Shown here piece after piece: positions 8,787-17,539 of a DNA stretch of 64,000 nt (position 1 is the stretch's first letter; each line of letters opens with the position of its first letter). Below the pieces are notes generated by a model. The model ran no database searches. It saw nothing but the letters and a program-made list of their open reading frames with translations, and was not told the origin of the DNA. The position numbers were made by a program, and so were the translations under genes. The DNA lies in NCBI GenBank assembly GCA_903840355.1, contig CAIMFJ010000007.1, forward strand, positions 1-64,000, in the 5' to 3' direction. This stretch comes from an uncultured Opitutia bacterium (GTDB taxonomy: Bacteria > Verrucomicrobiota > Verrucomicrobiia > Opitutales > UBA953).

Positions 8787-10400
8787 TTATTTTTCGTTGT
8801 TTTTGGCGGTTCCGACAAAGGGTGGACGTTCAAAGGTCAGGCCATCGCCTAAGACGCGCGGGTCGCCCGCCTCCCGTAAGGTTTGCAAGAGTTGTTGGGC
8901 TAGGGCCTCGCGGATTTTTTGGTAGGCGGGGTCTTGGGCGACGTTCTTGGTTTGTTCGGGGTCGCGTTTTAGGTCGAACAGTTCCTCGCCAGGACGGAGG
9001 GCGAAGGCGAGGTTGTACTGCCATTGCCATTGTGGGTTATCGAATTGATCCACGAGCCAGGCTTTCGAAGGGCTGGCATCCATGTCGGCAAAAGCGGTGT
9101 AGGTGTTGCGTTCGATTTTTTCTCGTCCCGGGAAGTCTTGGCGACTGGTGAAGTTCGGTTGACCTAAAGGCCAACGGTCAGGAGCAAAATTGCGGACGTA
9201 TAAGAACTCTTGGGTGCGCAAGGCCCGTTGCGGGTAGGGTAAGTTGCCTGGGCGAGCGAAGGCGACATGCCGTTCGCGTCCTGTCACTACCCACGTGCGA
9301 GTGGGGTCGATTTGCCCCGAGTGTTTCGCCCAGAGCAGCGGCGCAAAACTTTTGCCGTTCATCACCGCGGGCGGGGTGACGCCGCCGAGTTCTAAAAAAG
9401 TCGGAGCTAAGTCCATCAAGTTGATCAGGTCGTCGACGACGCGTCCCGCTTTGATGCCAGGGCCCCAAGCGATGAGGGGTACGCGGACGCCAAAGTCATA
9501 CAGATTGCATTTGCCTGCGGGGACGCCGGGCATCCCGTGGTCGCCACTGATGATAATAATCGTTTGCTCTAATTGCCCTTGGGCAGCGAGTTCTTGCAGT
9601 AATTCACCTACCCCCGCATCCCACGCTTGGACCTCGCCCATGTAATCGGCGAAGTCCGCCCGGATTTCAGGAACGTCGGGAATGAACGAAGGAAGTTTCC
9701 CTTTAAGGTCATCGGGGTTGATGCCCCAGAGTGCTTGCCCGGAATTTTTTTCGTAGGGGCGGTGGGTTAGCGTCGGACCGAACCAAAAACAAAAAGGTTG
9801 GTCGGCAGGTTTAGCTTTTAAGAAAGTCCGAAAGTTTTCGCGGATTTGGCCGAGTAGTTTGGCCTGAGCTTGCGGCCAAGTAGCGCCTTCCTTGACGAGT
9901 TGCGTGGCACTACTGGAAAAACGATTATAGGCCCGACCGGCTTTTTCATAGGCATATTGCTGTCCGCCATAGGGAGCGTCGGCGGGCGTGCCGGGACTCC
10001 ACACTTTATAACTTTTTCCTAAGTGATAACCCGCATCGCGTAAGAGCAAGGGGTAGGTAGGAATCCGGCTATCCCAGTGGGCGCCTTGCAAAATTGCTCC
10101 TAAGCCCGTGCGGAAAAAATATTGGCCGGAGAGGAGGGAACTGCGACAGGGCGTGCAACTGGGGGCGGTGACAAAGGCGTTGCGAAAAATGACCCCTTCA
10201 TGGGCTAAGCGATCGAGGTGCGGCGTTTTTAAAACCTGATTGATACTTGGCGTGTGATCTAACTCGTCATACACGTGCGCATACCGGCCCCAATCATCGG
10301 CAAAAAGGAAAAGGATATTGGGTCGGGTAGGGGCAGCGAGGGCGACACCTGTGTAGCAAAGACTTCCCAGCCAGAAGAGGTAGTAGGCGATGCGGTGCAT
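8787..10400 (-). CDS. Secreted sulfatase (family S1, CTPCR type)
   Basis: Type I sulfatase, predicted to hydrolyse sulfate esters or sulfamates on polysaccharides in the periplasm or outside the cell. A signal peptide is present (ALAAPTRP region near residue 25). NILFLFADDWG gives the two metal aspartates. The formylglycine signature is SCTPCRSSLLSG, where the first Cys would become formylglycine. SGDHGMPG near the middle is the usual Asp-His metal pair. At 537 residues the length is normal. Only 3 bp separate it from the second sulfatase upstream, so the pair is probably co-transcribed. The substrate cannot be read from sequence. The second Cys in CTPCR, replacing the common Ser, is unusual but still fits C-x-P-x-R. 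Confidence 0.92.
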   Translation of the reverse strand: MHRIAYYLFWLGSLCYTGVALAAPTRPNILFLFADDWGRYAHVYDELDHTPSINQVLKTPHLDRLAHEGVIFRNAFVTAPSCTPCRSSLLSGQYFFRTGLGAILQGAHWDSRIPTYPLLLRDAGYHLGKSYKVWSPGTPADAPYGGQQYAYEKAGRAYNRFSSSATQLVKEGATWPQAQAKLLGQIRENFRTFLKAKPADQPFCFWFGPTLTHRPYEKNSGQALWGINPDDLKGKLPSFIPDVPEIRADFADYMGEVQAWDAGVGELLQELAAQGQLEQTIIIISGDHGMPGVPAGKCNLYDFGVRVPLIAWGPGIKAGRVVDDLINLMDLAPTFLELGGVTPPAVMNGKSFAPLLWAKHSGQIDPTRTWVVTGRERHVAFARPGNLPYPQRALRTQEFLYVRNFAPDRWPLGQPNFTSRQDFPGREKIERNTYTAFADMDASPSKAWLVDQFDNPQWQWQYNLAFALRPGEELFDLKRDPEQTKNVAQDPAYQKIREALAQQLLQTLREAGDPRVLGDGLTFERPPFVGTAKNNEK

Positions 10401-10403
10401 GGT

Positions 10404-11954
10404 TTATTTCACGGGCTCTTTTTCAAAGTCGGTCGGCAAGACCCAACCGGTGGTGAGTTTTTCGCCGCGCAGGTAGCGTTCGTAGAAATGAAGATTTTTA
10501 GTATCAGCGGTGGGGAAGGCTTCGTAGTCGGCTCCATGCCCGAGGGCTCGCCAGTCGCCTCCTTGACGTAATTCTTCCCACATTTGCAGGTGAAAACTTG
10601 CCAGCTTACTTTGCTGCGTGGGGTCGGTGGCGAGGTTGGTGACGCAGTCGGGATCCGTCTGGAGATTGTAGAGTTCGACTTGCGGCCGTAAGCCGAAGCA
10701 GAGTTGCCAATAGGGGTCGTGGCCGTTTTGCCGGTGGGCTTCTAAGATAAAGGTTTTAGAAGGACTGCCGTCGGTATCTAAATACCCGGTCTCAGGATTG
10801 CCCGCCGGCCAGCGGCTGGGTTCGGTGTTTTCTAAGTAGAGAAAATGCTCCCGGACTAAACCCCGAATGGGATAGCCCGCATCGTGCGGCCGCCCGATGT
10901 CGTTGCGTTCGCGGCCGATGAGGACGTGGTCGCGGTGGGTCGGGGTTTCACGGAAAACATCGAAGAGGCTTTGGCCGCTCAACGGGGCTAAGGGCGTGCG
11001 GCTGGCTTCGAGGCCCGCGGCTTGGAGAAAGGTGGGGACGAAGTCGGTGAAGCTGACAAAATCTTCGACGATGCGACCGGGGTGTTGGATGCCGCGTGGC
11101 CAACGCACGGCTAAGGGCAGGTGATTGGTGGCTTCGTAGGCCTGACCTTTCACGCGCGGGAAGGGCATGCCGTTGTCGCTGGTGACAATCACGAGGGTTT
11201 GATCTAAAACCCCCGCCTGCTCGAGTAAGGATAAGATTTTACCCAAATGGGCATCCGCATGTTCTACTTCTAAGGCATAATCGAGTAAGTCGGTGCGGAT
11301 GACGTCGTTGTCGGGCAGATAACCTGGCACGTGGTCGATGTCGGAAGTTTTTTTGCCCGCGACGCGCGTGCCACTGCCGTATTCATAGTCGCGATGCGGT
11401 TCGGCGGGGCCGAGCCAGAAAAACCAAGGTTGTTGGGGCGAGGTTTGCTGGAGGAAGGTCGCAAAATTGGCGGCGTAATCCACGTCGCTCATCCCGGTCG
11501 CTGGCGGCTTGGTATGAATCTTATTAAACATTTGTCCCGCGAGGTTGCGCGGTTGGCCGTTGGTTAAGAGCGCGCGGCCCGGCGCCCACACTTTACCGCA
11601 CGAAGCATACTGGTAGCCCGCTTGTTGCGTGAGCACTTCGGGGAAGACTTTTAATTCAGGCGGAAAAATGCACTGGTGATTGGCAGCCGCTCCTAATTGC
11701 CAAGGGTAGCGTCCGGTCATGATACACGAGCGTGAAGGCGTGCATTTACCCGTGGGCGTGTAGGCCTGGGTAAAGAGCAAACCCTCGCGAGCGACGCGGT
11801 CGAAGTTTGGGGTTTTAACCCAACGACACCCATAGGCACCGGCATGCCCCATGCCCCAATCATCTAAAATATAAAAAAGAATATTCGGTCGCTCCAGCGG
11901 CGGGGCGGCCACGAGCGTTGACAGGAATAAGCAACTGCAAACGAACCAGCGCAT
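10404..11954 (-). CDS. Secreted sulfatase (family S1, CTPSR type)
   Basis: Second type I sulfatase, 516 residues, with an N-terminal signal peptide (FVCSCLFLSTLVAAPP). It has the metal-binding NILFYILDDWG and the canonical formylglycine signature GKCTPSRSCIMTGRYP, followed by TSDNGMPFPR in the usual position of the later metal residues. It is related to the next gene downstream but clearly diverged, consistent with an old duplication and different substrates. It lies 66 bp after the multicopper oxidase stop and is probably the first sulfatase of a sulfatase-sulfatase-peptidase operon. A formylglycine-generating or anaerobic maturing enzyme would be required and is not in this window. Confidence 0.93.
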   Translation of the reverse strand: MRWFVCSCLFLSTLVAAPPLERPNILFYILDDWGMGHAGAYGCRWVKTPNFDRVAREGLLFTQAYTPTGKCTPSRSCIMTGRYPWQLGAAANHQCIFPPELKVFPEVLTQQAGYQYASCGKVWAPGRALLTNGQPRNLAGQMFNKIHTKPPATGMSDVDYAANFATFLQQTSPQQPWFFWLGPAEPHRDYEYGSGTRVAGKKTSDIDHVPGYLPDNDVIRTDLLDYALEVEHADAHLGKILSLLEQAGVLDQTLVIVTSDNGMPFPRVKGQAYEATNHLPLAVRWPRGIQHPGRIVEDFVSFTDFVPTFLQAAGLEASRTPLAPLSGQSLFDVFRETPTHRDHVLIGRERNDIGRPHDAGYPIRGLVREHFLYLENTEPSRWPAGNPETGYLDTDGSPSKTFILEAHRQNGHDPYWQLCFGLRPQVELYNLQTDPDCVTNLATDPTQQSKLASFHLQMWEELRQGGDWRALGHGADYEAFPTADTKNLHFYERYLRGEKLTTGWVLPTDFEKEPVK

Positions 11955-12020: not shown

Positions 12021-14231
12021 TTATTTTAAGGGGCAACCGGAGGTTAATTCAGTCGGGGCTCCCGTGAAGGAGAGCTTCTTGTCCGTGGTGCGACCTAATT
12101 GGGCCAAGCTGGCGCTGAGTTCTTGGAGAATGCCGGCACTGTAGCCGGGGTTGGCCTTGGTGATGAGGCCGTTGGGCGCTACCAACACGGTGCCGGCACT
12201 GCGTTCGGCTCGATAGGCCGTACTCACGTTGCCGTCGGGATCTGCAATGACAGGGAAGTTCGGGCCAACGGTTTGGGTCCAAGCCGCGGCGGTGGCGTCG
12301 TCGGCATTGATCACGCCCAAGACTTTCGCACTGCCGGCGTAGGCTTGTTGGAGTTGATTGATAAAGACCGCCGCGTCGCGAGAGCACGGACATTCTTTTT
12401 CAATGAAGTAGAGCAAGAGTGGCTGACCCGCGGCGTAGCTGGTGTTCGTCACGGTGCGGCCTTGGGCATCTTGCCAACTGAAGGGGGCGGCTTGCGTTTG
12501 CGTGAGTTGCGCGGCGACTTTGATCAACTGGGCGGTGAGGGGGTGTTCCGTTTTGGCACGAAAGCGAATGGTGCCGTCTTTCTCGCGCTTAATTCCCTCG
12601 GGATTCGCGGAGACTAAGAACTGTCCCATCATCCCGCCATCTTCATGGTTCGCCATGTGGCAGTGATACATGAAGGGGTCGGTGTCGCTGGCGAAATCTT
12701 CAAATTTGGCGACGAGCGTGACCCACCCACCGCGCGGCAGGTAAGCGGTGTCTTTCCAGCCTTGTTCAAACTCGGGCACGGTACCGTCGCTGCGGGCAAT
12801 GATTTTAAATTGCACGTCGTGCACGTGGAAGGAGTGACCAAAAATATTATTATTGGTGATGGTCCAGGTTTCGGTGGCTCCGAGCTTCACCACGAAATTA
12901 TTCTGGTGCATGTCGAAGGACTTGCCATCGAACTTAAAGAACGGCCGGCCGTCGGTAACGCTGATTTGACGCTTGGCGCTGGCCTCCGCTGCCACAGGGA
13001 AGTGGTTGGTTTTGAGCGTTGCGGGGAGTTGCGTGATGCGCGGGTTGGTGGCGTTGCTGATGAGGCAGTGCAGCACCCGGAAATCTTTATTATTTAAGAG
13101 ACTCCCATTGGCCCCGCCTTGATCGGGCTCGCCGCCCGGAAAACCAAAACTCTGATTGGAGTTATACGCCATGAGGTCGAAACTCGAGCCAGGTTTGTCG
13201 GCACTGAGGTCGACTAAGATTTCCGCCCGTTCTCCGACCATCAACCGAATCCGTTTCAGCGGAATGGGTTTGTCGACCAAGCCCCCATCGGTGGTGATTA
13301 AATAAAACGGCCGTTGGTCGCTAAATCCTAAAATATAACCGCGTTCGATTTCGGCGTTCAGAATGCGGAGGCGCACCCACTGGGCGGGTAGTTTGGTTTG
13401 GGCGTCCATGACGCCATTCACGAGCCCGTAGTCGCCGTATTTATCGTTATCGCCAGCGTAGGTGAATTGGTTGCTGTTGTTAAAGCGACGACTCGTGAGC
13501 ACCAACGGAATATCATCGACGCCGTAGGTGCGGGGGAGGGCGAGTTTGGCTTCTTCCGCGTCGCGGATGATGATTAACCCCGTGGCCCCAAGGGCCATTT
13601 GCTTCTGCGTGGTTTCGTGCGGGTGCGGGTGATACCAGTAAGTGCCGGCGTTATTTTTAACGATCCAACTCGGCGTCCAAGTCGCGCCTGCGGCGATCAC
13701 TTGATGCGGCCCGCCATCGGTGAGCGCGGGGAGGTGCAAGCCATGCCAATGGACGGTGGTGGGTTCGGTATAATTATTTTTAAAATTAATCTGCACCTTT
13801 TCGCCTTGGTTGAAGACCAACGTCGGCCCCATGAAATTAGCCCCGTTGTAGCCGAGTGTTGGCGTGGCAGTTTCGGCATACTTCATCGTCCCCGCCGCTA
13901 AGGTGAGGTTGTAGTTTGGTCCCGTGAGCAGGGGCGGAATCCAGAGGTCTTTGAGCGTGTGCTCCGTGATGACTTTGCCGGAGGGGCCGCGTCGGCCCCC
14001 GCCGGGTCCGCCAGGTCCGCCGCCGGGAGGACCATCGGGACGACCTCGGCCAGGCGGGCCGCCTTTGCCAGGGCCAGGAGGTCCGTCGTTATTGCCGTCG
14101 CGGGGGCGCGGGGGCCGGCCGGGGTTATTAGGATCGTCGGCCTGTTGTCCTGCCAAGGGGGCAGACGAAAACACCACCAGCATCGCTAAGACCGCGACGA
14201 CGAGGCCGAGCCAACGCCAAGTGAACTTCAT
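12021..14231 (-). CDS. Multicopper oxidase fused to a C-terminal thioredoxin-fold domain
   Basis: Exported three-cupredoxin oxidase of 736 residues. Residues 1-30 are a signal peptide. Residues 34-86 are a Gly/Pro/Arg/Asp-rich linker. All four copper motifs are present: HWHGLH (161-166), WYHPHPH (199-205), HSFHVH (466-471) and HCHMANHEDGGMM (523-535), the last giving a type 1 site with an axial Met. After residue 560 the cupredoxin part ends. Residues 584-712 resemble a redoxin/AhpC-TSA domain: PLLLYFIEKECPCSRD with Cys614 and Cys616, then GVINADD and FPVIADPDGNVSTAYR. Metal or phenol oxidation coupled to thiol chemistry is an inference. It could act as a cuprous oxidase or manganese oxidase; the substrate is not readable. 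No Shine-Dalgarno motif precedes the ATG. Confidence 0.9.
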   Translation of the reverse strand: MKFTWRWLGLVVAVLAMLVVFSSAPLAGQQADDPNNPGRPPRPRDGNNDGPPGPGKGGPPGRGRPDGPPGGGPGGPGGGRRGPSGKVITEHTLKDLWIPPLLTGPNYNLTLAAGTMKYAETATPTLGYNGANFMGPTLVFNQGEKVQINFKNNYTEPTTVHWHGLHLPALTDGGPHQVIAAGATWTPSWIVKNNAGTYWYHPHPHETTQKQMALGATGLIIIRDAEEAKLALPRTYGVDDIPLVLTSRRFNNSNQFTYAGDNDKYGDYGLVNGVMDAQTKLPAQWVRLRILNAEIERGYILGFSDQRPFYLITTDGGLVDKPIPLKRIRLMVGERAEILVDLSADKPGSSFDLMAYNSNQSFGFPGGEPDQGGANGSLLNNKDFRVLHCLISNATNPRITQLPATLKTNHFPVAAEASAKRQISVTDGRPFFKFDGKSFDMHQNNFVVKLGATETWTITNNNIFGHSFHVHDVQFKIIARSDGTVPEFEQGWKDTAYLPRGGWVTLVAKFEDFASDTDPFMYHCHMANHEDGGMMGQFLVSANPEGIKREKDGTIRFRAKTEHPLTAQLIKVAAQLTQTQAAPFSWQDAQGRTVTNTSYAAGQPLLLYFIEKECPCSRDAAVFINQLQQAYAGSAKVLGVINADDATAAAWTQTVGPNFPVIADPDGNVSTAYRAERSAGTVLVAPNGLITKANPGYSAGILQELSASLAQLGRTTDKKLSFTGAPTELTSGCPLK

Positions 14232-14245
14232 GGTCTAATCATAAC

Positions 14246-14280
14246 AAACCCCGCCTTAATTGGACATTAAGACGGGGTTT
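14246..14280 (-). terminator. Terminator-like hairpin after the DUF1080 gene
   Basis: A 15-bp stem with one mismatch (AAACCCCG...CGGGGTTT) and a 5-base loop lies between the DUF1080 stop and the oxidase start. On the minus strand it is followed by TTTGTTATG, a weak U-tract. Confidence 0.65.
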
Positions 14281-14302
14281 GGGAGCGAGTTAACCTGACG
14301 AC

Positions 14303-15727
14303 TTATTTGCTTAAATCGTGCAGCTTCACGTTCTTGAACCAGACTTCGTCGCCGTGCTCTTGGAGCAAGATGTGGCCTTCTTCCCACTCGCCGAAACCTT
14401 TACCATACTTGGGATCGGAGTACTTGCTGAGCTTCACGAGCTGACGGAATTCGTCGGTGTGACGGTTATACGACACGACCAAGCGACCGTTGAGCCAGTG
14501 TTCGACGTGGTTGCCATCGCTGATCACGTAAGCGTTGTTCCATTCGCCAATCGGATTCACGCGCTTGTTTTGAGCGGTGATTAAATCGTAGAGCGAACCG
14601 CAAGTACGGTTGCCATTACGACCTAACTTGGCGTCAGGGTGGACGGCGTCATCGAGCATTTGGAATTCAGGACCAAACGCCGAACCTGCACCTTTGTTGA
14701 GGTCAGGCTGGACATAGTATTTTAAACCGCTGTTCGCCCCGGTGGTTAATTTGAAGTCTACGCTGACTTCGAACTTCTTGTACTGCTTAAGGGTGACGAT
14801 GTCACCGGCAGCAGCCGATTCCTTGCCACCCGAGGAGGCCGTGCGGAGCGTGCCGTCCACGACGGACCAACCCGATTGCGGGAAGTTCGGACCCTTGGCG
14901 GAGCGCCAGCCTTCGTGCGTCTTACCATCAAAGAGCAAGACCCAGCCATCTGCTTTTTCCGTGGCACTGAGAGTGTTGTCGGTAATCGGCGTAATATTGA
15001 CGTTACGGAATTGGACCGTAGCCCCCGCGACGTCTTTGTTCTTACCAATGCCGTGCACTTGGAAGGCGATGAAGCCCGTCAAGTAGCCATCGTCGCGCAC
15101 GTCCACGCGCTGCTCGCCATTGAGCCAGGTGCGGATGCGGTTGCCGTTGGCTTCAACTTTAACGTGATTCCACTCGCCGACTTTCGTCAGACGACGACCT
15201 TGTTCTGAGAAACTGACCGAGTCACCACCGCCAAAACCAGGGACGACCCAGCCGCGACGGCCTTCTTCGTAGAGACCCGCCGTCCACTGACGAGGCTTCT
15301 TGTCGACGGAGTTGAGGTTCTTGGTGTTGGTGTCGATTTCAGCCTGATAGCCATGCACGCGGCCCGCGGGAACCTTGGCGGTCTTGCCCTTGGCATCGGT
15401 GTAGGTGACGTCGTGGTCGAACGCGTGCGAACGGATTTGCACGCCCGAGTTCAAGCGCTCGTCGTCGAGGAAGTCATACTCCAAGACGAAATTGCCGTAC
15501 TCTTGGTCAGTGGCTAAGAAGCTGTTGGGAACGTCGACAACTGCGGTGCCCGTGAGGATGCCGTTGTTGTAAGCGTATTGGGCTTTGCCGCCTTTAATGG
15601 AGAAGCCCGTGAGGTCTTTGCCGTTGAAGAGCGGTTGGCTGTCGCTGGCGCTGTTCACGCTTTGGCAGGCCACAAAACTGAGGCCACAGAGCGATAAACA
15701 CGCGAGGGTGGTGAGGGTTTTTTTCAT
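14303..15727 (-). CDS. Lipoprotein with two DUF1080 domains
   Basis: Outer-surface or periplasmic lipoprotein: the start MKKTLTTLACLSLCG is followed by a lipobox-like SFVAC. Two concanavalin-like DUF1080 (3-keto-disaccharide hydrolase) domains follow, roughly residues 30-240 (LFNGKDLTGFSIKGG) and 265-474 (LLFDGKTHEGWRSAKG), each ending in a VWFKNV- or VQFRNV-type strand. DUF1080 proteins bind or cleave carbohydrates, and some hydrolyse 3-keto-glycosides made by Gfo/Idh-type oxidation. The gene just upstream encodes such an oxidoreductase, which supports that reading. The ATG at 15727 is preferred. A start at 15763 would lie inside the terminator stem of the upstream gene and delay the signal peptide. 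Confidence 0.88.
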   Translation of the reverse strand: MKKTLTTLACLSLCGLSFVACQSVNSASDSQPLFNGKDLTGFSIKGGKAQYAYNNGILTGTAVVDVPNSFLATDQEYGNFVLEYDFLDDERLNSGVQIRSHAFDHDVTYTDAKGKTAKVPAGRVHGYQAEIDTNTKNLNSVDKKPRQWTAGLYEEGRRGWVVPGFGGGDSVSFSEQGRRLTKVGEWNHVKVEANGNRIRTWLNGEQRVDVRDDGYLTGFIAFQVHGIGKNKDVAGATVQFRNVNITPITDNTLSATEKADGWVLLFDGKTHEGWRSAKGPNFPQSGWSVVDGTLRTASSGGKESAAAGDIVTLKQYKKFEVSVDFKLTTGANSGLKYYVQPDLNKGAGSAFGPEFQMLDDAVHPDAKLGRNGNRTCGSLYDLITAQNKRVNPIGEWNNAYVISDGNHVEHWLNGRLVVSYNRHTDEFRQLVKLSKYSDPKYGKGFGEWEEGHILLQEHGDEVWFKNVKLHDLSK

Positions 15728-15740
15728 GAGTTTTGGATTT

Positions 15741-15782
15741 TGGAAATAAAGAAGCGAAGTCACCGGTAGGTGACTTCGCTTC
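15741..15782 (-). terminator. Intrinsic terminator after the Gfo/Idh gene
   Basis: A perfect 14-bp stem (15751-15764 with 15769-15782, GAAGCGAAGTCACC arm) and GGTA loop, followed on the minus strand by TTTATTTCC. It sits 11 bp after the oxidoreductase stop. Confidence 0.88.
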
Positions 15783-15792
15783 TGAAGGTTAA

Positions 15793-17322
15793 TTAAAACG
15801 TGGTGGGGATTTCGAAGCCCTTGCGGCCCGTGCGCTTGGCCACGAGGTCGGCGTTAGCCGCAGCGGCGTTGGCACCGGTGAAGAGTTCCGTCTTCGTGTC
15901 CACCGTGAGGGGTGCACCGAGGATGGCCTTGGTTTCGTCGAGCTTCACGCCGTTCACGCCGAGGTGATCTTGCATGCGCGAGAAAGCTTCAGCGAGACCC
16001 GAGCTGGACTTGATGGCGTCGTTGATTTCGCCCGCGCTCTTCTTCGCGCCTAAGCGGAAGGAGATGTTGGCGGAGTGAACTAAAGCCGTGGACAAGAAGC
16101 ACTCGCGCACGGGGGCGTGAATGTTTTCGGCCGAACCCTTGCGGATGCACTCCACCCAGTTGGCGTGGTGACCCGAAGCGCCGCCGCTTAAGTCGACTTG
16201 TTCAATCGCCTTACCGTAGGACTTCACTTGGTTGCCGTCCTTGTCGTAAACTTGAGCCGAGTTGTAATCGGGCACCACGATGGTGGCGTTTTCGCACTCG
16301 ACGATGATACCGATTTCAGGCGAGCGCTTGAACTTACCGAACTTGTCGGAAGGACCGTCGATCTTGCCATTCGCCGTTAAGCCACGGACTTCCGTGATGA
16401 GCGGAGCGTGGGCGTAATTGTGAATCGAGATGAAGGTGTTGGGCGTTTCGGCGCAATCGGAGTAACCGAAGCGACCGCCCACGGAGACGACTTCCGGAGC
16501 CACTTCATGGGTGTTCAAGAACCAGCGAGCGATATCGATTTCGTGAATCGCTTGGTTGCAAAGGTCGCCACCACCGTAGTTCCAGAACCAGTGCCAATCG
16601 TAGTGCACGGCACCGGTGCTGGTGGTTTCATTCACCTTGTCGGTTTGGTTGCCGCGGATGGATTCTTGGATGTCCGCAGGGCCGTGCCACAAATCGTAAT
16701 CAATGTTGGCAGGGATTTCATGCTTCTTGGCTGGACCAATGGACTTGCGGCGCTTGTAGCAGATGGCGCGAGCGACTTTTACTTTGCCGTACACGCCCGC
16801 GTGCACGTCTTTGATGGCAGCGCGGATGCCTTGCCCCGAGCGGCTTTGCGTACCGGCTTGGACGATGAGCTTATCGAAGTGCTTCGAAGCGGCGACGAGT
16901 TGTTGGCCTTCGAAGATGTTGTGCGAGAGGGGTTTTTCGACGTAGAGGTGCTTGCCCGCTTGTAAGGTCCAGATACCTTGGAGGGCGTGTTGGTGATTCG
17001 GAGAAGCAATCGAGACTGCATCGACTTCGCCGCTTTCCAACATCTTGCGGATGTCGGTGAAGCCCTTGGCGTTCGGGTGGCTCTTCAAACCTTTGGCGAC
17101 CACATCGGAGTCGACATCGCAAAGGGCCGCGATGCGCACGCCTTTGATCTTGCCGAGCTCTTTGAGGTGCTCGGAGCCGCGACTGCGGAAACCGACCACA
17201 CCCACGCGCAAGTCGCCGTTCGCCCCAGAGACCTGGGCGTACGAGCGAGCACTGAGGCCGAGGGCGGCCGCAGCCAAGGCGGAGTTTTTAATGAAGTGAC
17301 GACGATTGAGTGGAGACATCAT
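15793..17322 (-). CDS. Tat-exported Gfo/Idh/MocA family oxidoreductase
   Basis: NAD(P)-dependent sugar oxidoreductase of about 509 residues. The N-terminus NRRHFIKNSALAAAALG is a Tat-type signal, so the enzyme is probably exported folded with its cofactor. The Rossmann fold follows (LRVGVVGFRSRG, IAALCDVD), then VEKPLSHN with the conserved EKP triad. Members of this exported Verrucomicrobia/Planctomycetes group are proposed to oxidise sugars at C3, producing 3-keto sugars for DUF1080 hydrolases such as the gene immediately downstream. The start is taken at the first of two consecutive ATG codons (17322, 17319). The frame extends upstream to 17388 but those residues do not look like a signal sequence. 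Exact substrate unknown. Confidence 0.9.
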   Translation of the reverse strand: MMSPLNRRHFIKNSALAAAALGLSARSYAQVSGANGDLRVGVVGFRSRGSEHLKELGKIKGVRIAALCDVDSDVVAKGLKSHPNAKGFTDIRKMLESGEVDAVSIASPNHQHALQGIWTLQAGKHLYVEKPLSHNIFEGQQLVAASKHFDKLIVQAGTQSRSGQGIRAAIKDVHAGVYGKVKVARAICYKRRKSIGPAKKHEIPANIDYDLWHGPADIQESIRGNQTDKVNETTSTGAVHYDWHWFWNYGGGDLCNQAIHEIDIARWFLNTHEVAPEVVSVGGRFGYSDCAETPNTFISIHNYAHAPLITEVRGLTANGKIDGPSDKFGKFKRSPEIGIIVECENATIVVPDYNSAQVYDKDGNQVKSYGKAIEQVDLSGGASGHHANWVECIRKGSAENIHAPVRECFLSTALVHSANISFRLGAKKSAGEINDAIKSSSGLAEAFSRMQDHLGVNGVKLDETKAILGAPLTVDTKTELFTGANAAAANADLVAKRTGRKGFEIPTTF

Positions 17323-17539
17323 AATGACTGTTGGGGGTAATAGTGCGGAGCATAAGGAGACAGCCGGAAGGTCGAGACTGTTTCCCAATTATTTGCTCAA
17401 TTTTACCGAGTGGCCGTCCAGGAGTGCGGCGGGTGTGGTGACGTGATTTTACGACCTAAGATACTGGAACACAGATACTTAGATTATTATTATGAGCAAA
17501 CCCCGGAGGGGAGCCGCCGGGGTTTGCTGAAGTTTAAGC
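17323..17539. other. Intergenic region upstream of the Gfo/Idh gene
   Basis: This 217-bp stretch holds the terminator at 17495-17528 and probably the promoter of the oxidoreductase gene. No further gene, tRNA or convincing promoter hexamer pair was found. Confidence 0.5.
17487..17528 (-). terminator. Intrinsic terminator after the PA14-cytochrome gene
   Basis: A 12-bp perfect stem (AGCAAACCCCGG at 17495-17506 with CCGGGGTTTGCT at 17517-17528) and a 10-base loop lie 11 bp after the stop. On the minus strand it is followed by an AT-rich stretch rather than a pure U-run. Confidence 0.75.

Follow-up and report, generated by a model that had tools for sequence, protein, structure and literature searches.

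A verrucomicrobial multicopper oxidase fused to a thioredoxin-fold domain with a CPC site: a candidate for copper and thiol handling in cis

What does a thioredoxin-fold domain do at the C-terminal end of a multicopper oxidase (MCO), and does it serve the oxidase to which it is joined? The question is raised by a gene in a stretch of 64,000 nucleotides (contig CAIMFJ010000007.1, from an uncultured Opitutia bacterium), which was analysed as a whole and is referred to here as the window. The initial annotation, made from the sequence alone, had set the limits of this gene at 12021-14231; these are exact, and the strand is minus. The frame comprises 736 codons with zero internal stops, and the plus strand over the same interval has stops in the frame read. 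As had been proposed, the gene encodes an MCO joined in one protein to a C-terminal thioredoxin-fold domain (C-domain), the fold being supported by Pfam, profile comparison, AlphaFold2 and fold matches. The features of the gene and of its surroundings are collected in Table 1.

Table 1. Features of the fusion gene and its neighbours (positions in the window)
Feature	Position	Strand	Basis or remark
MCO-redoxin fusion gene, 736 aa	12021..14231	minus	ATG at 14231, stop at 12021
Export signal, residues ~1-28, Sec-like, without twin-arginine before the hydrophobic core	14148..14231	minus	by eye
Gly/Pro/Arg-rich low-complexity segment, residues ~37-84	13980..14123	minus	sequence; pLDDT <50 at residues 21-98
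First cupredoxin domain (Cu-oxidase_3), residues 116-226	13554..13886	minus	Pfam 1.7e-27
HWH copper motif, residues 161-163	13743..13751	minus	sequence and alignment
HPH copper motif, residues 201-203	13623..13631	minus	sequence and alignment
Third cupredoxin domain (Cu-oxidase_2), residues 428-541	12609..12950	minus	Pfam 3.5e-27
HSFHVH copper motif, residues 466-471	12819..12836	minus	sequence and alignment
HCHMANHEDGGM, type 1 copper and trinuclear ligands, residues 523-534	12630..12665	minus	sequence, CueO alignment
Thioredoxin-fold domain and lead-in, residues 558-736	12024..12560	minus	AlphaFold2, fold matches, ResA profile
CPC site, Cys614-Pro-Cys616	12384..12392	minus	in 22/22 other fusion loci; helix 615-631 in models
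Cys733 in C-terminal SGCPLK	12033..12035	minus	C-terminal Gly-Cys in 22/22 other fusion loci
Sulfatase 1, 66 bp downstream of the MCO gene, neighbour kept in the window's clade	10404..11954	minus	Pfam, tblastn
Sulfatase 2, neighbour kept in the window's clade	8787..10400	minus	Pfam, tblastn
DUF1080 (3-keto-disaccharide hydrolase) protein, conserved upstream neighbour	14303..15763	minus	Pfam, tblastn
Gfo/Idh/MocA oxidoreductase, conserved upstream neighbour	15793..17388	minus	Pfam, tblastn
16-bp hairpin, terminator-like, between the DUF1080 and MCO genes	14245..14281	minus	

The fusion recurs across freshwater relatives as one conserved protein. The initial annotation had proposed a survey of Verrucomicrobia; a scan of 84,980 species genomes for the C-domain returned 25 loci, 22 of which have oxidase and redoxin in a single frame (in L045 the contig edge cuts off all of the oxidase but its HCH end). 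All 22 are labelled Verrucomicrobiota and are mostly 'Opitutae' MAGs, with the proviso that such labels may err (one reads Akkermansia muciniphila). Given that the frame is without a stop and that 22 of the 25 loci are fused alike, we conclude that the fusion is real, and that chance, a frameshift or an assembly join of two genes is ruled out as its origin. The remaining three loci have no oxidase in the frame: L050 and L051 belong to Fimbriimonadaceae (Armatimonadota), L053 to Opitutia. For residue-level comparison an aligned set was made of the window, 17 of the 22 other fusions and two stand-alone forms, leaving out L035, L037, L045, L048 and L052 as near-duplicates or truncated. Trees of the oxidase and of the redoxin agree for most well-supported clades; the window groups with L032 and L034 in the former (support 100/99), and in the latter it sits on a long branch within a wider five-member set (support 91/92).

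In a sample of the window's order, an MCO match was found in 27 of 177 genomes, and 24 of the 30 MCO loci taken have a frame with the HCH motif. It had been said that cupredoxin oxidases usually end at HCH. This holds to the extent that just four of the 24 frames bear this redoxin, but several of them have tails of 90-220 residues. All four redoxin-bearing frames fall in the window's genus, where the C-domain is present in 4 of 7 sampled genomes and every frame has 733-741 codons. Phylum and class samples gave whole-protein matches at 1e-20 in 9 of 387 genomes and C-domain profile matches at 1e-15 in 10 of 384, and added a further fusion genome (G369). A match on a Haliscomenobacter plasmid, aligned to residue 594 and flanked by efflux genes and a copper ATPase, was rejected as a fusion, its gene having just 565 codons; the C-domain alone had zero matches on plasmids.

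The copper motifs of the oxidase part are intact, as the initial annotation had claimed: HWH161-163, HPH201-203, H466/H469/H471 and HCH523-525 stand where it had put them, expressly or by implication, and H529 and M534 join HCH as further copper ligands by sequence and alignment. The Cu-oxidase_3 and Cu-oxidase_2 matches score 96.3 and 95.3 bits against Pfam cut-offs of 21 and 20.4, respectively. Both domains are matched in all 18 fusions of the aligned set, in which the 12 copper-ligand positions (ten His, one Cys and one Met) are unchanged throughout; the roles of these ligands follow the CueO alignment and the usual assignments. The Gly/Pro-rich linker that had been placed ahead of the redoxin is in reality the segment at residues ~37-84, ahead of the oxidase.

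With CueO and CutO the window oxidase has in common the three-domain layout and the T1, T2 and T3 ligand motifs. Its matches in the PDB include 6evg, 8r4h and 2yxv at 2e-77 to 1.3e-73, and the matches aligned without a break are variants of CueO from which the Met-rich region has been removed. Unlike CueO and CutO, the window protein has an extra C-terminal redoxin and lacks a Tat-type signal; a twin-arginine ahead of the hydrophobic core is found in none of the 21 judgeable fusions (22 are listed, the start of L033 being set too late). The choice between Tat and Sec was rejected as a mark of the fusion, as 7 of 20 non-fused MCO frames of the order sample have a twin-arginine by eye and 13 do not. 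The protein scores 363 bits against the NCBIfam CueO equivalog cut-off of 525, and its alignment to CueO contains no Met-rich insert. M355, D439 and M441, which form the extra Cu(I) site of CueO, are aligned with residues of the window oxidase that are neither Met nor Asp. Since the CueO cut-off is missed and the extra cuprous-site residues are replaced, the window oxidase is probably laccase-like.

Two observations on other oxidases may be recorded here. In six MCOs of the order (L071, L073, L075, L076, L079 and L080), ~196-219 residues separate HCH from a terminal Phe and look like an outer-membrane barrel; the one tail scanned, that of L075, is without Pfam matches at E 0.001. Among non-fused oxidase domains, the closest (L004 in G137, 55% identical) lies inside a 1765-codon frame behind repeat-like domains, and adjoins a gene resembling, by eye, a heavy-metal efflux adaptor.

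For the C-domain, the domain search suggested in the initial annotation gave AhpC-TSA at residues 579-691 (53.6 bits against a cut-off of 26) and Redoxin at 583-698 (Pfam). AlphaFold2, with 19 alignment rows, predicts a thioredoxin fold confidently (mean pLDDT 92.9, pTM 0.91). Among the nearest solved folds by Foldseek and VIA-align are DsbE of Chlorobium, DipZ, ResA and CcmG, the best Z being 17.3 (DsbE; 3gl3) and that of ResA ~15-16; ResA also leads among sequence profiles (6.3e-13). Cys614-Pro-Cys616-Ser and FPVIADPDGNVSTAYR were found at the residues where they had been described. The CPC opens the first long helix of the predicted domain, and the CEPC of ResA that aligns with it is one residue longer. 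C733 in the C-terminal GCPLK, absent from the initial annotation, is a third conserved cysteine: the fusions end in GCPL, GCTF or GCVF, and both the CPC and the C-terminal Gly-Cys are unchanged in all 22 other fusion loci while C-domain identity with the window drops to 45-60%. CxC thus stands in place of CxxC in every one of them. E611, K612, N642 and R677 are invariant across all 20 aligned rows, and position 679, the cis-proline position by ResA alignment, is Ala or Val in all 20. Judged by its residues, the active site fits no standard class, having CxC, no cis-proline, no peroxiredoxin residues and no CxxxC of Sco type.

The VIA alignments of the C-domain model to 3u5r, 2ywi and 2cvb run to the final residue of the model, and a more distant redoxin of the window's own genome (L013) likewise ends in Gly-Cys; we tentatively take this as one common layout that includes a C-terminal cysteine. 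Selenocysteine in relatives was considered and rejected, one TGA near the C-terminal end in two class-level matches, away from the active site, being taken as an ordinary stop.

Peroxiredoxins carry the motif PxxxT/SxxC. At positions 3 and 7 before C616, the fusion C-domains have Glu/Ala and Phe, not Thr/Ser and Pro, and the Ala or Val at position 679 falls where peroxiredoxins have their active-site Arg (position taken from the description in PMC2757866). The peroxide handling suggested in the initial annotation is thereby disfavoured, and peroxidase activity of the C-domain is unlikely from its residues. That the domain would scavenge peroxide to protect the oxidase, as the AhpC-TSA and Redoxin matches and the PrxQ-like relatives found in the class by profile might suggest, is hardly credible with the Pro, Thr/Ser and Arg all replaced.

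The fold and domain sequence resemble most closely those of ResA, TlpA and CcmG (DsbE), which brings up a second alternative: a CPC recharged by DsbD would reduce disulfides of the oxidase or of other secreted proteins, with no copper bound. The best profile and fold matches are of this type, a DsbD homologue is present in the genome, and TlpA reportedly acts as a reductant on ScoI and CoxB ahead of their metallation (as described in PMC7558416 and PMC6696091). However, the C-domain differs from these proteins in its CxC rather than CxxC, the missing cis-proline, the C-terminal Cys and the fusion to an oxidase, and cis-proline substitution is described in PMC13269488 as abolishing DsbA turnover. 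We regard a reductase of this kind as a serious but somewhat unlikely alternative.

The same departures bear on metal binding. According to Su 2007, as cited in PMC2757866 and PMC6210436, the cis-proline keeps metals from binding to the active-site thiolates of thioredoxins, and its loss makes these sites accessible to metals. PMC7558416 counts CxC among the motifs of Cu(I) trafficking. Given a site of CxC type, no cis-proline, a possible third thiolate and a tethered cuproenzyme, we favour Cu(I) handling over general disulfide exchange. A metal site of another kind, in which the CPC would ligate a bridging [2Fe-2S] cluster in a dimer, has its precedent in engineered CACA and CACC thioredoxins, where CxC or the loss of the cis-proline allowed clusters to form, as PMC6210436 relates. 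The extracytoplasmic location, the engineered nature of the precedent and the lack of a cluster-assembly gene among the neighbours scanned make this very unlikely.

Among thioredoxin-like copper proteins, CopG is described in PMC7558416 as a periplasmic CxCC copper-cluster protein and proposed copper donor to CueO, and as showing genetic linkage, in other bacteria, to oxidases of the CueO type. The CxCC shape of CopG and CutG (DUF411) is common to the stand-alone relatives of the C-domain (CPCC in L050 and L051, CGCC in L017). In contrast, CopG/CutG is a separate protein in those bacteria, and the motif of the fusions is CPCS, not CxCC. No PF04214 (DUF411) match was obtained up to E 10 in the five proteins scanned, and there is no CopG chain among the matches listed (60 of 81) in the sequence comparison. 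The 50 matches listed in the fold comparison include neither a CopG nor a Sco chain, which is no evidence of absence. Sco1/SenC shares the thioredoxin fold and the extracytoplasmic location, yet the Pfam SCO1-SenC match is very weak (E 0.2), and the C-domain has neither CxxxC nor an invariant His near the site or in the domain core.

The stand-alone relatives bear on whether the domain depends on an oxidase at all. L017 is a 162-aa stand-alone form from the window's family ending in SGC; the C-terminal Gly-Cys is also present in L050 and L051 and is masked by an N run in L053. The genomes of L050 and L051 each have a separate MCO, and no Cu-oxidase_2 match was found in those of L017 (G381) or L053 (G774). 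Since stand-alone forms occur in these two genomes without a detected MCO, the C-domain is not tied to an oxidase. L047 and L053 make the point at one locus: their flanks (DUF1501 gene upstream, glycerate kinase gene downstream) are 81-84% identical in DNA, and the gene between them is a fusion in L047 (3207-5321), and in L053 (4887-5450) a leader and redoxin without the oxidase. The L053 protein consists of a leader (~17 residues 59% identical to that of L047, with an E of only 0.04), a short Gly-rich piece and a redoxin 74% identical to L047 over 152 residues. The oxidase is missing in frame, and the join itself is free of N runs, which occur in the upstream gene and at the redoxin's C-terminal end. 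Misassembly of the MAG may be an alternative cause. Because L053 keeps leader and redoxin where L047 has the fusion, the redoxin can stand alone, and L053 may represent a loss or an older state.

These forms would also suit a passenger or docking domain, that is, a secreted redoxin sharing its chain with the oxidase and having other partners but no catalytic link. The retention of the fusion in 22 loci over several clades, and the agreement of the two domain trees for most well-supported clades, make such an arrangement decidedly unlikely.

By tblastn of the neighbours, L032 and L034 preserve the order Gfo/Idh, DUF1080, MCO-redoxin, sulfatase, sulfatase, as do L033 and L035 to the extent that their contigs reach; L039 has the same four neighbours, rearranged. 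The other 17 of the 22 fusion loci have different neighbours (a DUF1080 relative of 35-38% identity is nearby in L040, L041, L042, L048 and L049), so that the sugar/sulfatase setting is confined to a single clade. A functional link to the sulfatases or DUF1080 was rejected, the order being conserved in just 5 of the 22. Both tandem sulfatases (8787-11954) have, by eye, a CxPxR motif of the Cys type; Cys-type sulfatases need a maturase. The hairpin upstream of the MCO gene is weak as a terminator, as the region contains 12 terminator-like sites against a shuffled mean of 13.8; a 15-bp hairpin also lies on the minus strand at 15750-15783, in the short gap before the DUF1080 gene. No copper gene was identified among the neighbours scanned (sulfatases, DUF1080, cytochromes and others). 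Searches of the genome that contains the window (99.3% complete) gave a single match each for MCO, Sco and DsbD. DUF411/CopG was without a match at E up to 1, as was HMA at E up to 0.01, whereas HMA was found in 14 of 14 control genomes. Copper trafficking may be unusual in this genome.

A second MCO-redoxin fusion occurs in the phylum. L009 (940-3297) and L068 (808-codon frame from ~1291) resemble the window in having an MCO followed by an AhpC-TSA domain and are 51% identical to each other. They differ from it in the MCO (that of L009 is 32% identical to the window's), the redoxin motif (CVHC or CLRC), the absence of a C-terminal Gly-Cys and the tyrosinase-family gene that follows the fusion in both loci. 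From these motifs and degrees of relatedness, the pairing of MCO and redoxin looks to have arisen at least twice in the phylum.

QSOX joins a thioredoxin domain to an O2-reducing enzyme and uses FAD. The window protein is similar to it in design, not descent, with copper in place of the flavin, and might be its copper counterpart: electrons would flow from client thiols to the CPC disulfide, the type 1 copper, the trinuclear site and O2, making disulfides. One chain does combine a dithiol in a thioredoxin fold with an enzyme of a type that reduces O2, the second fusion carries a CxxC motif, and engineered exported CxC thioredoxins restore disulfide formation in the account of PMC6210436. Nevertheless, the cis-proline to hold client thiols is absent, the L053 redoxin stands without an oxidase, and the relative placing of the domains is unreadable: the full-length model (mean pLDDT 66.2, pTM 0.51) allows neither domain packing nor the distances of C614, C616 and C733 to the type 1 copper to be read. 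We therefore consider this route unlikely. If it were true, the protein would be a flavin-free, quinone-free, single-polypeptide disulfide maker (or small-thiol oxidiser) outside the cytoplasm, C733 would share the electron relay with the CPC, and the L009/L068 fusion would have arrived at the same principle separately.

The reading that we tentatively prefer, at somewhat less than even chances, is that the C-domain is a candidate extracytoplasmic Cu(I)/thiol-handling domain servicing its own oxidase, working like factors of the CopG, Sco or TlpA type while belonging to none of them. The coupling of copper chemistry to thiol redox, for example in copper loading, which the initial annotation had put forward, is plausible in this form and is the leading reading, but an inferred one. 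The protein would be exported through Sec in a copper-free state. Once it is outside the cytoplasm, the CPC would bind Cu(I), possibly with C733 contributing a third thiolate, or would alternate between Cu(I) and a disulfide. It would then pass copper to the tethered oxidase or keep the oxidase reduced, including the type 1 ligand C524, and the oxidase, once mature, would use O2 to oxidise small substrates, phenolic or otherwise. The C-domain would thus act as a periplasmic CopG, Sco or TlpA would, but in cis.

This copper-service reading draws support from the 12 intact ligands, the invariant CPC and Gly-Cys, and the CxCC of the stand-alone relatives; further support comes from the absence of a twin-arginine in the fusions, the one-MCO genome without DUF411 or HMA, and the second fusion. 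CutO, like CueO, is described in PMC8456105 as acquiring copper after export. However, the same account describes CutG, the CopG homologue beside CutO, as dispensable for CutO maturation, its cysteines included, and CutF, not CutG, as needed for CutO. That dispensability and the lack of a sequence link to CopG/DUF411 weaken the reading, as do CPCS in place of CxCC, the absence of an identified copper gene among the neighbours scanned, the stand-alone forms in G381 and G774, where no MCO was detected, and nearest sequence relatives that are thiol-disulfide oxidoreductases.

Both halves of the protein belong to known families; the literature searched, mostly open-access, contains no description of their combination, of the site with CPC, Gly-Cys and no cis-proline, or of the stand-alone relatives. 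The supply of copper to extracytoplasmic MCOs, and the part that a dedicated thiol protein may have in it, are unsettled in the field, CutO requiring CutF but dispensing with CutG (PMC8456105). The fusion in cis, the oxidase-free locus and the CxCC stand-alone kin make that question testable, and if electrons pass from thiols to copper, the fusion would represent a new way of making disulfides.
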